From positions 1-64,000 of the forward strand of contig NZ_JADEWC010000019.1 in NCBI RefSeq assembly GCF_015207825.1: a stretch of DNA of 64,000 nucleotides, read 5' to 3'. The first letter of the stretch is position 1. Every line of letters begins with the position of its first letter. The notes below the pieces were generated by a model. The model saw nothing but the letters and a program-made list of their open reading frames with translations. It made no database searches and was not told the DNA's origin. A program made the translations under genes and the position numbers. This document shows, in pieces, positions 26,184-38,419 of the stretch. The stretch comes from Cyanobacterium stanieri LEGE 03274. Its GTDB lineage: Bacteria > Cyanobacteriota > Cyanobacteriia > Cyanobacteriales > Cyanobacteriaceae.

Positions 26184-27512
26184 ATGAATTTTCAACAGAC
26201 ATCTAACCATGTTTATAAGGGAGCATTTGCGATCGCCCTTGGAATCATTGCCATACCAGAATCAGCATCAGCGGTAGTTATCAATGAATCATCCATAAAC
26301 AGCCCTACTTTGCTAGTGAGCAACCCCGAACAAATCGCCTCCTTAAACCCCAATCAGGGGGAATTGAACCAAAACAGCGAAACATTAGAGAAAACAGAAT
26401 TCGACATTGCCAGTAACCGTAGATTAAGACAACTACTTAGTGCCAATGATCAACCTGAATTGTCTGCGGTGTTTCAACTAGAGAATCAAGACACAGAAAA
26501 TATCATCAGCGCCCAAGAAATTAGCACCTATCAAAATAACCCAGAAACCAATAATTCCTCACTAAACTTCACACCCACCCAAGAAACCACCATCGCCCAA
26601 TCCCAACCCATTCCCATTGCCGTAGAAAACGTTAACCAAGATGTTAACCAAGGGATTCCCATTCAAGTAGTTCCCGCCGTGGAAAATAACTCAGAAAACT
26701 TCTCTCAAAATCAACCCGTTTTAATTCCTACCCAAACAGAATTTAGCTTTGAAAATAATACCCCTACACAAGACTTTCAAAGCAACAACCCCAATACCTT
26801 CAATGACAATTCTTCTACCTCTGGGGAAGACTTTACCCAAGCCTACGAGCCTGAATATAGAGAAACCGCAGTAGTACCCATTGAGGTGCAAAGTTTTACC
26901 CCCAATAATCAACCCACCCTCATCAGTAATCAAGAAACATTTGATTTTAACGTTAGGGAATTAAATAACAATGATCCTACCCAAGTAACGCCTCCCCGAG
27001 AAGTGGCATCAATTCCCATTCAGATAGATTTTTATAACCCTGCCAATATGCCGCCCCCGGCTAATATTGATTCCCCTGATATTCCCCCTCAACTTAATTC
27101 CCCTGAGCAGTTTTTGCCCGAAACCGAACGACCCTTTAACGGTTATATTTGGCCGGCTAAGGGGGTGTTTACCTCTGGGTATGGCCCTCGTTGGGGTAGG
27201 ATGCACCGAGGAATAGATATTGCAGGGCCTGTCGGTACTCCCATTGTGGCGGCCGCTGATGGAGAGGTGATTACCTCTGGTTGGAGTACAGGGGGTTATG
27301 GTAATTGGGTTCGTATTAGACATAATGATGGTTCTATTACCCTTTATGCACACCATAGCCGTAACCATGTGCGCCGTGGACAGAGGGTAAGACAAGGGCA
27401 GTTAATCGCTGATATGGGTAGTACGGGTTTTAGCACGGGGCCCCATCTTCATTTTGAGATTCATCGTGGAGGAAGGGCGGTTAATCCTATGAGTCATTTG
27501 GCAAGAAGATAG
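26184..27512 (+). CDS. M23-family (LytM) metallopeptidase with long disordered linker
   Basis: A 442-residue exported protein. A signal-like segment (GAFAIALGIIAIPESASA) is followed by about 280 residues of Asn/Gln/Pro/Thr-rich linker with repeated VVP/IPI-type beta-like snippets. The peptidase domain spans roughly 320-438. Zinc-ligand motifs are MHRGIDIAG (HxxxD, about H341/D345) and GPHLHFEI (H421/H423), with YAHHS between them, so the active-site set looks complete. The family cleaves peptidoglycan cross-links or regulates amidases. No LysM or SH3 domain is visible. Confidence 0.9.
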   Translation: MNFQQTSNHVYKGAFAIALGIIAIPESASAVVINESSINSPTLLVSNPEQIASLNPNQGELNQNSETLEKTEFDIASNRRLRQLLSANDQPELSAVFQLENQDTENIISAQEISTYQNNPETNNSSLNFTPTQETTIAQSQPIPIAVENVNQDVNQGIPIQVVPAVENNSENFSQNQPVLIPTQTEFSFENNTPTQDFQSNNPNTFNDNSSTSGEDFTQAYEPEYRETAVVPIEVQSFTPNNQPTLISNQETFDFNVRELNNNDPTQVTPPREVASIPIQIDFYNPANMPPPANIDSPDIPPQLNSPEQFLPETERPFNGYIWPAKGVFTSGYGPRWGRMHRGIDIAGPVGTPIVAAADGEVITSGWSTGGYGNWVRIRHNDGSITLYAHHSRNHVRRGQRVRQGQLIADMGSTGFSTGPHLHFEIHRGGRAVNPMSHLARR

Positions 27513-27522
27513 TTTCTTTTTT

Positions 27523-27637
27523 GGCGTTGCTGATTTTAGGTATAATTTTTCGTTGAGAAAGGGAACAGTTGTAATATTTAGGGGTCTTAGTTTCTTGTGT
27601 CGTTCAACTATATTTCATACCATAATTAAGCAATGCC
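27523..27637. mobile_element. MITE-like element A, copy at 27.5 kb
   Basis: A 115-bp segment with imperfect inverted ends. The left end reads GGCGTTGCTGATTTTAGGTA and the right end, reversed, GGCATTGCTTAATTATGGTA. It starts 10 bp after the M23 gene stop. The flanks are T-rich on both sides, so a direct repeat cannot be judged. Its length and ends match the copy at 36847-36963. No coding capacity. Confidence 0.65.
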
Positions 27638-35250: not shown

Positions 35251-36813
35251 ATGGCTGTTGGCATTTGGATTTTAGGTGATCAATTAAATAAAAATAATTC
35301 TGCATTATTAAGTCGTTTACAACAAAAAAAAGATACCTACATACTTTTTATAGAGTCTTTTAATCTAGGCTCTTTACAGACTTATCATTGCCAAAAATTG
35401 GTTTTAATTTGGTCGGCTATGCGTCATTTTGCCCAAGAATTAAAGGAAGATGATTGGCAAGTGTCTTATGTCATTAATGACAATTTTCAGCAATCTTTCA
35501 TAAATTGGATAAAAAATTATCAAATTACAGAATTACGCTTGATGAGTCCTAGTGACGATCGCACCGTACTTTTTAATCAAATTAATTCATCTAATAACCA
35601 TGATAGATCTTTTTTTAGCTTCCTCAAAGAAATAGATATAAATTGTCATATCAAACTTTTTCCGAATAGCAATTTTTTGTGGCAAAAAGAAGAATTTAAA
35701 CAATGGGCGAAAAAAAGAAAAAAGTTGATTTTAGAAGACTTTTACCGAGAAAGTCGCCAACGATTTAACATCCTACTAACGGAAGACAATAAACCCATCG
35801 GTGGAAAATGGAATTTAGATAAAGAAAACCGTCAACCACCAAAAAAAAATCTGCAAACTCCTGTTACCCTATTTTTTAAACCCGATAAAATAACCTTAGA
35901 AGTCATTGAAAAAGTAAAAAAAATCAATGATAAAACCTATGGGAAAATAGATAATTTTCAGTGGGCAGTAAAAAGAGAAGAAGCCTTAAAAGTATTAAAT
36001 CAGTTTGTACAATATAGATTGAATTTTTTTGGTAAATATCAAGATGCCATGATAACAGAAGAAAAATTTATGTGGCATAGTTTAATTTCTCCTTATTTAA
36101 ATATTGGCTTATTACAACCTTTAGAGGTAATAAAAACTGTAGAAAATGCTTACTATCAAGGAGATTATCCCCTCAATTCCGTAGAAGGATTCATCAGACA
36201 AATACTAGGATGGCGAGAATATATGTATAGTTTATATCACTATGTTGATGATAGTTATTTTAGTAGTAATTGGTTTGATCATCAAAACCCTATTCCTGAC
36301 TTTTTTTGGGATAGTAACAAAACTGATATGAATTGTTTACATCAAGTGTTAAAACAGACGGAAAATACTGGGTATGCCCATCATATTCAACGATTAATGA
36401 TTTTAAGTAATTATGGTTTGGTGGCTGGTATTTCTCCTCAAGAGTTAAAAAAATGGTTTCATGCGGTTTTTATTGATGCCTATGACTGGGTAATGCAAAC
36501 TAACGTATTGGGCATGGGGCAGTTTGCTGATGGGGGGATTTTAGCATCAAAACCCTATGCCTCTTCGGCTAATTACATTAATAAAATGAGTGATTATTGT
36601 AAGGGATGTTGTTATAATCCTAAGGAAAAGTTCACAGAAAATGCTTGTCCTTTTAATTATTTATATTGGAATTTTTTGGCTAGACATGAGGAAAAGTTAC
36701 GCACTCAAGGGCGGATGAATTTGGTTTTAAAACATTTGGAAAAAATGTCAGAAAAAGATTTAGAAACTATTAATTTTTTAGCACAAAAAAGAATTAATAA
36801 TGATGAACATTAA
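35251..36813 (+). CDS. Photolyase-related protein, FeS-BCP / PhrB type
   Basis: A 520-residue member of the prokaryotic cryptochrome/photolyase lineage with a [4Fe-4S] cluster. The N-terminal antenna-like domain starts MAVGIWILGDQLN. The C-terminal FAD region contains SVEGFIRQILGWREYMY, and near the end are NYINKMSDYCKGCCYNPKEK and NACPFNYLYWNFL. The Cys of MNCLHQVLKQ plus those of YCKGC and NACPF form the expected four-ligand set. Members repair (6-4) photoproducts or act as photoreceptors; which applies here is open. It lies opposite the hybrid kinase gene. Confidence 0.9.
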   Translation: MAVGIWILGDQLNKNNSALLSRLQQKKDTYILFIESFNLGSLQTYHCQKLVLIWSAMRHFAQELKEDDWQVSYVINDNFQQSFINWIKNYQITELRLMSPSDDRTVLFNQINSSNNHDRSFFSFLKEIDINCHIKLFPNSNFLWQKEEFKQWAKKRKKLILEDFYRESRQRFNILLTEDNKPIGGKWNLDKENRQPPKKNLQTPVTLFFKPDKITLEVIEKVKKINDKTYGKIDNFQWAVKREEALKVLNQFVQYRLNFFGKYQDAMITEEKFMWHSLISPYLNIGLLQPLEVIKTVENAYYQGDYPLNSVEGFIRQILGWREYMYSLYHYVDDSYFSSNWFDHQNPIPDFFWDSNKTDMNCLHQVLKQTENTGYAHHIQRLMILSNYGLVAGISPQELKKWFHAVFIDAYDWVMQTNVLGMGQFADGGILASKPYASSANYINKMSDYCKGCCYNPKEKFTENACPFNYLYWNFLARHEEKLRTQGRMNLVLKHLEKMSEKDLETINFLAQKRINNDEH

Positions 36814-36838
36814 ATTAATTTACTATCATTCACCATAT

Positions 36839-36971
36839 AATAATTTGGCGTTTGTGAATTAAGATATGATTTTTAGTGGAGTTTGGCCATAGGAAATGGG
36901 TAATAGTAATACTATACATTTACTGCAATTCAATAATGCTTCATACTCAAAATCAGTAATGCCAATAATTT
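36839..36971. mobile_element. MITE-like element A with perfect 8-bp direct repeats
   Basis: The element spans 36847-36963 (117 bp). The left end is GGCGTTTGTGAATTAAGATA and the right end, reversed, GGCATTACTGATTTTGAGTA. It is flanked by AATAATTT at 36839-36846 and again at 36964-36971, a perfect 8-bp target duplication. Length and ends match the copy at 27523-27637. No reading frame for a transposase. Confidence 0.75.
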
Positions 36972-37032
36972 TTGTTGCTTATATGAAATAGAAAAAAGAT
37001 TGCTATAAATATAATTAACTTCAGTATTTCCC

Positions 37033-37082
37033 GCCTTGTAATTCATTACAAGGCTACGGATTTTTCGTTCAATAAATTGAAC
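37033..37082 (+). repeat. Two-palindrome intergenic element, copy 1
   Basis: A 10-bp stem (GCCTTGTAAT / ATTACAAGGC, 2-nt loop, 37033-37054) is followed 12 bp later by a 7-bp stem (GTTCAAT / ATTGAAC, 2-nt loop, 37067-37082). A second copy lies inverted at 41246-41294. No gene is present. The paired palindromes resemble the hairpin ends of IS200/IS605-type or palindrome-associated elements, but that relation is inference. Confidence 0.65.
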
Positions 37083-37279
37083 TTTTATGTTTGGAAATAA
37101 ATGGATTCAGCACCCATAAATCTATACAAGGAATGGTCAAGGGTTTTAACCTAAATTGAGGTTAATTAGGCTGGGATTTTATTTGAGAGGTTTTATTTGT
37201 CGTAAACATTTAAGTATTTCATATTACTTGTTTAAAAGCCTTACAAAATAAGCATTATGATATTTTATAACGCTTCATT

Positions 37280-38419
37280 CTAATTTTGATTAACTATAGA
37301 AAAACGACTTAAATCAGGATAAAGATTGGCAATACCTTCGGGGGTAGCAGGGCAAATTCCCCTATCGGTAATTAAACCAGTAATTAGACGGGCAGGGGTA
37401 ACATCAAAACCATAGTTAACCGCAGGGCTATTTTCAGGGGTTAATAATACCTCGGTAATTTCTCCATCTTTTAATCCTTTAATATATTTTACTTCCCTTG
37501 CGTCTCGCTGTTCGATGGGAATTTGTTTTACACCGTCGCTGATTGTCCAATCAAAGGCGGAATAAGTAAGGGCAACGTAAAAAGGGATGTTATTATCCTT
37601 GGCGGCTAATGCTTTGAGATAAGTGCCGATTTTATTGGCTACATCTCCAGTATAGCTGGTGCGATCGCTCCCTACAATAACTATATCCACCATACCATGT
37701 TGCATGAGATGACCACCCACATTATCAGGGATGACGGTATGGGGGACCCCCTGTTGCCCCAATTCCCACGCTGTCAGTCTTGCCCCTTGGTTACGGGGGC
37801 GGGTTTCATCCACCCACACATGGACTTTTAAACCCCGACGATGGGCTTGATAAATGGGAGATGTTGCCGTGCCATTATCCACACAACCAAGCCATCCTGC
37901 ATTACAGTGGGTAAGAATATTAACCGTGTCGCCCTGTTTTTTGTCACTGATAGCCTTGATTAACTCGAAACCATGTTCACCGATACTCTTACATAATTGT
38001 ACATCCTCAAGGGCGATCGCCCCTGCCACTTCCAAAGTTTTTGCAATGATTGCGTCTATGTCATTGCCCAAGGGTGCAACGGCTTCTAACTGACGATTTA
38101 CCGCCCATTCCAAATTTACCGCCGTCGGTCGAGTAGCGCACAATTTCGCCCCCATTGCCCTCAAAAACCCTTGCACCTCAAATTTATCCTGAGCCTTGGC
38201 TTCAAGGGAGGCTAAGTACATTCCATACCCCGCAGAAGCACCGATTACCCCTGCTCCCCTAACGTGCATTTCCTTAAGGGCGATCGCCACATCATCCACC
38301 GTCCTTAAATCCTCAATGACAAACCGATGGGGTAAATGTCGTTGATCAATTATTTGTATTACCGTAGGTTCATCAGCCTTTAACCAAATAGTACGAAAAG
38401 CCTTCCCATTAACATCCAT
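37280..38419 (-). CDS. mtnA: S-methyl-5-thioribose-1-phosphate isomerase
   Basis: A 379-residue enzyme of the methionine salvage pathway, converting methylthioribose-1-phosphate to methylthioribulose-1-phosphate. It belongs to the eIF2B-alpha-like family. Motifs are RGAGVIGASAGYGMYLA, NILTHCNAGWLGC (catalytic Cys) and IVIVGSDRTSYTGDVANKIGT (catalytic Asp). The length is normal. Upstream is a short gap full of heptamer-type repeats. Confidence 0.95.
   Translation of the reverse strand: MDVNGKAFRTIWLKADEPTVIQIIDQRHLPHRFVIEDLRTVDDVAIALKEMHVRGAGVIGASAGYGMYLASLEAKAQDKFEVQGFLRAMGAKLCATRPTAVNLEWAVNRQLEAVAPLGNDIDAIIAKTLEVAGAIALEDVQLCKSIGEHGFELIKAISDKKQGDTVNILTHCNAGWLGCVDNGTATSPIYQAHRRGLKVHVWVDETRPRNQGARLTAWELGQQGVPHTVIPDNVGGHLMQHGMVDIVIVGSDRTSYTGDVANKIGTYLKALAAKDNNIPFYVALTYSAFDWTISDGVKQIPIEQRDAREVKYIKGLKDGEITEVLLTPENSPAVNYGFDVTPARLITGLITDRGICPATPEGIANLYPDLSRFSIVNQN

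Follow-up and report, generated by a model that had tools for sequence, protein, structure and literature searches.

The question raised by this locus is whether a 117-bp sequence flanked by exact direct repeats is a transposed element and, if so, what moved it. The window analysed here is the whole stretch of 64,000 nucleotides (G000:C19:1-64000), taken from a genome of 3.19 Mb in 67 contigs. Within it, the element starts 33 bp downstream of the stop codon of a photolyase-related gene (35251-36813, PF04244), and no ORF of at least 100 aa crosses it (Table 1). On the other side lies a minus-strand gene of the IF-2B family (37280-38419, PF01008), with its 3' end 316 bp away. The first-pass annotation had described a perfect 8-bp duplication enclosing 117 bp, and both descriptions are exact, while its figure of 16 matching positions between the 23-bp inverted ends came down to 15/23 on counting. 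A second repeat sits beside the element: over 244 bp, positions 36981-37224 share 98.8% identity with part of contig C13 (L088:1543-1786), and one portion of the repeat (~37027-37083) occurs dozens of times in genome G002 and some ten times in G004.

Table 1. Coordinates of the two elements in the window and of the parts of the copy under study.
Feature	Position	Strand	Basis
115-bp element, sister subfamily B	27523..27637	+	ends 17/23, flanks 6/8
Left 8-bp target duplication copy, AATAATTT	36839..36846	.	exact
117-bp non-autonomous element, family A, left end first	36847..36963	+	copies, alignment, paired lengths
Left 23-bp terminal inverted repeat, GGCGTTTGTG...	36847..36869	+	end pattern/profile
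Internal heptamers GGCCATA GGAAATG GGTAATA	36885..36905	+	alignment; units read by eye
Right 23-bp terminal inverted repeat, GGCATTACTG... on the minus strand	36941..36963	-	end profile
Right 8-bp target duplication copy, AATAATTT	36964..36971	.	exact

The element is present in many copies, far beyond chance. When the copy at 36847-36963 was used as query, at least 40 matches were found in its own genome (all 40 of the candidates scored, out of 114 at first look), the copy at 27523 gave 45, and the genome-wide search for the 23-base ends that had been proposed at first pass returned 90 matches when up to three mismatches were tolerated; the reversed pattern, run as a control, returned 0. Once hits within 220 bp of each other had been merged, about 103 places in the genome carry the same or a related sequence. 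Within the window, an end profile recovered solely the four ends of the two elements, and no ends were found on five shuffles of the window, scored on one strand. The 115-bp copy reported at 27523-27637 does have matching ends, with the flanks agreeing at six of eight positions, but it belongs to a related subfamily with a different hit list; its start lies 10 bp past the stop codon of a Peptidase_M23 gene (26184-27512). Three copies of this subfamily B (L115, L117 and L126) contain an extra internal block with GCATCTCGACTTCGCT, possibly a different repeat nested within the MITE.

When 40 family-A sequences were aligned (39 loci, L012 being represented twice, and six of the sequences truncated), they showed sharp ends, a common interior and a varying number of heptamers of the type GGCAATA/GGGAATG. 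The paired copies are 114-158 bp long, with peaks at 122 (10 rows), 129 (15) and 136 bp (22), fewer rows at 134 (4), 115 (3) and 141 bp (2) and single rows at other lengths; a 199-bp row, in which element L033 is paired a second time, was left out of this range. This 7-bp length ladder is set by the number of internal heptamers, whose units were read by eye. The first-pass annotation had argued from drifting ends and a constant length that insertion was old and repeated. The drift of the ends is borne out across copies, but constancy of length is disproved, and as the lengths vary in 7-bp steps the argument built on it fails. Part of the 136-bp class has the interior of the 27523 copy, which indicates further subfamilies.

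Perfect 8-bp direct repeats at the flanks were found at 31 of the 67 paired rows (two of which are occupied by element L033), while 200 rounds of shuffling the right flanks among copies gave a mean of 0.04 and a maximum of 1. Perfect repeats of 7 bp occurred at two rows and those of 9-13 bp at none. A logo of the 44 sites with duplications matching at 7-8 of 8 positions has T at 0.61 at position -2, A at 0.64 at +2 and an A/T-rich core: the target sites are A+T-rich, roughly TA-[8 A/T]-TA, and near-palindromic.

The ends of the MITE are shared with IS1-family elements in G014 and G008, two genomes of the same taxonomic family as the host. The first lead came from G014, where a weakly matching locus (L061) turned out to be an 896-bp element that has both ends and a perfect 8-bp duplication; it holds an IS1-type transposase split into two pieces, and PF03400 matches the second of them. 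Two types of IS1-family element occur in G014, one of 893-896 bp and one of 780-802 bp. The shorter type, with ends GGCGTTGGTGAATGAGGGTATGA and GGCATTGGTGATTTTAGGTATGA, agrees with the family-A ends at 21/23 and 20/23 positions in the same left/right arrangement (L178), and both its ORFs match the NCBIfam model transpos_IS1 (NF033558) above cut-off, the second ORF also matching PF03400. A full-length insertion sequence with nearly the same ends and with 8-bp duplications, which the first-pass annotation had suggested looking for, is thus found in a relative genus. By eye, the sequence shared between MITE and IS is limited to about the last 25-30 bases. The IS1-type target duplication is 8-9 bp long; the 8-bp duplication of the MITE fits this range, and the same length was found, as perfect repeats, at 7 of 13 IS end pairs in G014.

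These 13 pairs and five from G008 make up our IS comparison set of 18 end pairs lying 480-1100 bp apart at IS1 loci. One G014 pair (L188, 1928-2707) is doubtful because one of its ends scores just 21, and two G008 pairs (L156 and L160) are shortened to about 495 bp. None of the five G008 pairs kept has a perfect 8-bp duplication, and among six G008 pairs inspected (L141, L146, L150, L154, L156 and L160) the best agreement was 5/8. Unlike in G014, the G008 elements thus combine well-kept ends with the lack of an 8-bp duplication, possibly a sign of rearrangement between copies. Elements of this type also occur on plasmids: 21 plasmid records match the G014 IS, a stretch of a Geminocystis sp. 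NIES-3708 plasmid at 99.5% identity and the other 20, from Nostoc, Calothrix, Microcystis and others, at 60-80%, several of them annotated as IS1 family transposase. The family-A MITE itself had no match in plasmid records.

A PF03400 search over 15 genomes gave one match in the own genome, seven in G008, 19 in G007 and none in G003 and G004; in further genomes it gave 18 in G014 and none in G010-G013. The single match in the own genome, on contig C14 (L140:1477-1998), is an IS1-like open frame of 174 aa, which we rejected as the source because it is not enclosed by an inverted pair of ends and the only end nearby, a weak one (score 22, L140:2407), points away from the gene. Nor was an IS-length element with the family ends seen among the 67 contigs of this genome within 0.4-2 kb either side of the end sites. 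Since the IS1-like gene of the genome has no such end pair, the transposase source may have been lost or have decayed, or may be missing from the assembly. Other candidate parents fared no better. PF12762, for the IS1595 family, had no match in the own genome; the G002 IS1 element has poorer ends, with scores of 10 and 13; and ten equal-scoring G007 IS1 copies (L143, L147, L151, L153, L155, L157, L159, L161, L162 and L163) showed no end above 9.

Judging from these sequence comparisons, the element is very probably a MITE that derives from an IS1-family insertion sequence and was moved in trans by an IS1-family DDE transposase. It is short, has no transposase gene, has inverted ends, an 8-bp duplication and dispersed copies, and shares its ends with an autonomous element. 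The transposase would recognise the MITE ends and stagger its cuts in the target by 8 bp, which would yield the 8-bp duplication. The earlier proposal, in which a transposase from outside the window mobilised a MITE family, is thereby supported, through copies with 8-bp duplications and an IS1-family relative with like ends. That the family is instead a structured repeat, REP-like or an RNA gene, and not a transposon would agree with its being an intergenic, foldable repeat, but we consider this extremely improbable given the sharp ends, the 8-bp duplications and the IS1-family elements with nearly matching ends; no Rfam family matched at the element places at gathering cut-offs, so that Rfam speaks neither for nor against it.

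The first-pass annotation had called the insertions old, which is only partly right. The median divergence of family-A sequences from their consensus is just 4.0% (range 0.8-28.8%; n=40, the six truncated sequences included), and the window copy stands at 8.5%. Any match to the element query was found in 10 of 40 genomes. In one search with an equal cap for each genome, 21 of 21 scored candidates matched in the own genome, compared with 3/21 in G003 and 8/21, many of them partial, in G004, two near-complete genomes of the host genus. Most copying therefore looks lineage-specific and seems later than these splits, although the insertion at L040 is flanked by nearly the same sequence in G004 (L064; by eye) and thus predates that split. 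At the locus itself, the orthologous intergenic stretch of G003 has no element end (the best end score being negative) and has diverged too far for a single AATAATTT to be recognised, and in G004 the flanking genes lie apart; no unduplicated empty site was recovered from either genome.

The most unexpected property of the family is where its copies lie. We placed the 65 two-ended copies among the ~103 places, the rest being single-ended above threshold or not fetched, using as a proxy for genes the longest ORFs of at least 100 aa, which lengthens 5' ends and so works against the result. The copies are intergenic and lie chiefly just downstream of stop codons: none of the 65 is inside an ORF of at least 100 aa, and within 20 bp of them there are 27 gene 3' ends and a single 5' end (26 of the 65 copies have a 3' end at this distance), rising to 43 and 5 within 50 bp. 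Intergenic positions of the window, taken as a control, gave 8.0% and 8.1% at 20 bp. The bias is found in copies with perfect duplications (10 3' ends and one 5' end within 20 bp) and in the remaining copies (17 and none), as well as in eleven paired copies from relatives (8 and 1), though only three of these eleven have duplications matching at 7-8 positions and one lies inside an ORF. When the flanks were joined into empty sites, an open frame of at least 130 codons ran over the join in 1 of 67. Sixteen copies start 0-7 bp behind a stop, so close that their position makes the 8 bp overlap the stop codon; in 11 of them the duplication agrees at 7 or 8 positions.

The copies are also oriented. 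At 0-15 bp from the nearest 3' end, the left end faces it in 20 of 23 copies, compared with 7/12 at 16-50 bp and 13/21 beyond, nine copies having no such neighbour; the 15-bp cut was picked after the list had been viewed, and the initial count at 60 bp was 28:8. Among the 18 IS pairs from relatives, one 3' end and two 5' ends lie within 20 bp. The difference between MITE and IS copies near a 3' end (26/65 versus 1/18; Fisher p 0.005) persists when the two shortened pairs and the doubtful one are dropped (1/15; p 0.015), but it is suggestive only, as the IS copies come from other genomes.

We infer that this placement reflects a target preference together with selection against insertions near promoters, possibly with an effect on transcript ends. 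Target choice could be the sole cause if the transposase favours TA-(A/T)8-TA sites, to which stop codons contribute. The T at -2 and the A at +2 in the logo agree with this, as does the finding that 6 of the 16 copies closest to a stop lie at exactly 7 bp, where the stop covers positions -2, -1 and the first base of the duplication. Just three of those six stops are TAA, however, and because the site is close to palindromic, target choice does not predict the 20:3 orientation; with the IS copies of other genomes showing no bias either, we regard target choice alone as possible but lean against it.

An alternative is that the copies have been exapted as transcript-end elements, kept behind stops with the left end first, where the hairpin of the forward RNA would protect or end the mRNA. 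The excess of 3' ends and the orientation close to them count in favour of this, as does the scarcity of 3' ends near the IS copies of relatives. The folding of the RNA likewise appears to favour it: in all 65 copies the forward RNA is more stable than the reverse (mean -29.8 versus -17.1 kcal/mol), with z values against 30 mononucleotide shuffles each of -2.35 and -1.14. The two group consensuses contain five G-U pairs each, which would not pair on the opposite strand, and the GGCG/GGCA difference is also present in IS1 ends. This asymmetry is common to the consensus and inherited by all copies, so it counts once and not 65 times. Furthermore, copies near a stop fold no better than the remainder (-29.4 versus -30.0), the window copy folds no better than its shuffles (z -0.78), as opposed to the 27523 copy (z -2.47), and no terminator-like site was found in 36700-37400. 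Substitutions do not point to maintenance of the structure either. In the first group (54 copies of mixed subfamilies) 55 changes led to G-U and 42 to A-C (p 0.22), and in the second 22 and 21; two-sided changes that keep a pair numbered 20 and 3 in the two groups, against 227 and 28 other mismatches. Since changes that keep a forward pair are no commoner than those that break it to A-C, nothing here indicates that the RNA structure of individual copies is being maintained. We therefore think it unlikely that the copies were exapted in this way, and distinctly unlikely that an IS1-derived MITE has by now become a transcript-end module selected in one orientation, with its hairpin ending or protecting dozens of mRNAs.

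The MITE family described here is new, though of a known kind, and its parent type belongs to the IS1 family. It resembles the IS1 family (NF033558, PF03400) in its ends and its 8-bp duplications and differs in lacking a transposase gene, in its length (114-158 bp versus 780-896 bp in G014) and, by eye, in its interior. With bacterial MITEs as characterised in the excerpted text of PMC10969869 it shares small size, inverted ends, a duplicated target, intergenic location and high copy number, while the IS1-family parent, the heptamer ladder and the oriented placement behind stops set it apart from them. By its description in PMC5896051, QMITE2 of Coxiella burnetii is likewise found mainly in 3' untranslated and intergenic regions, but it is 150-190 bp long, with direct repeats of 7-11 nt and an internal GTAG REP. 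BrickBuilt of Porphyromonas gingivalis (PMC4596501, in excerpt; also named in PMC10969869) similarly has a tandem repeat inside an intergenic MITE; it comes from a different organism and is set beside the present family by description alone. Nezha, cited in PMC10969869, is also a cyanobacterial MITE and is likened here by type alone. A literature search, with most subscription journals outside its scope, found no description of the present family, and the consulted part of PMC2246112, on cyanobacterial insertion sequences, does not mention it.

An abundant repeat of a cyanobacterial genome is now tied to a named transposase family. What was unexpected, and deserves following up, is that its copies gather, mostly in one orientation, behind stop codons. 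The 65 mapped insertions provide a set for asking why copies gather there, be it through target choice, selection or an action on transcripts, and the IS copies of relatives, which lack the bias, offer a comparison, though one drawn from other genomes.
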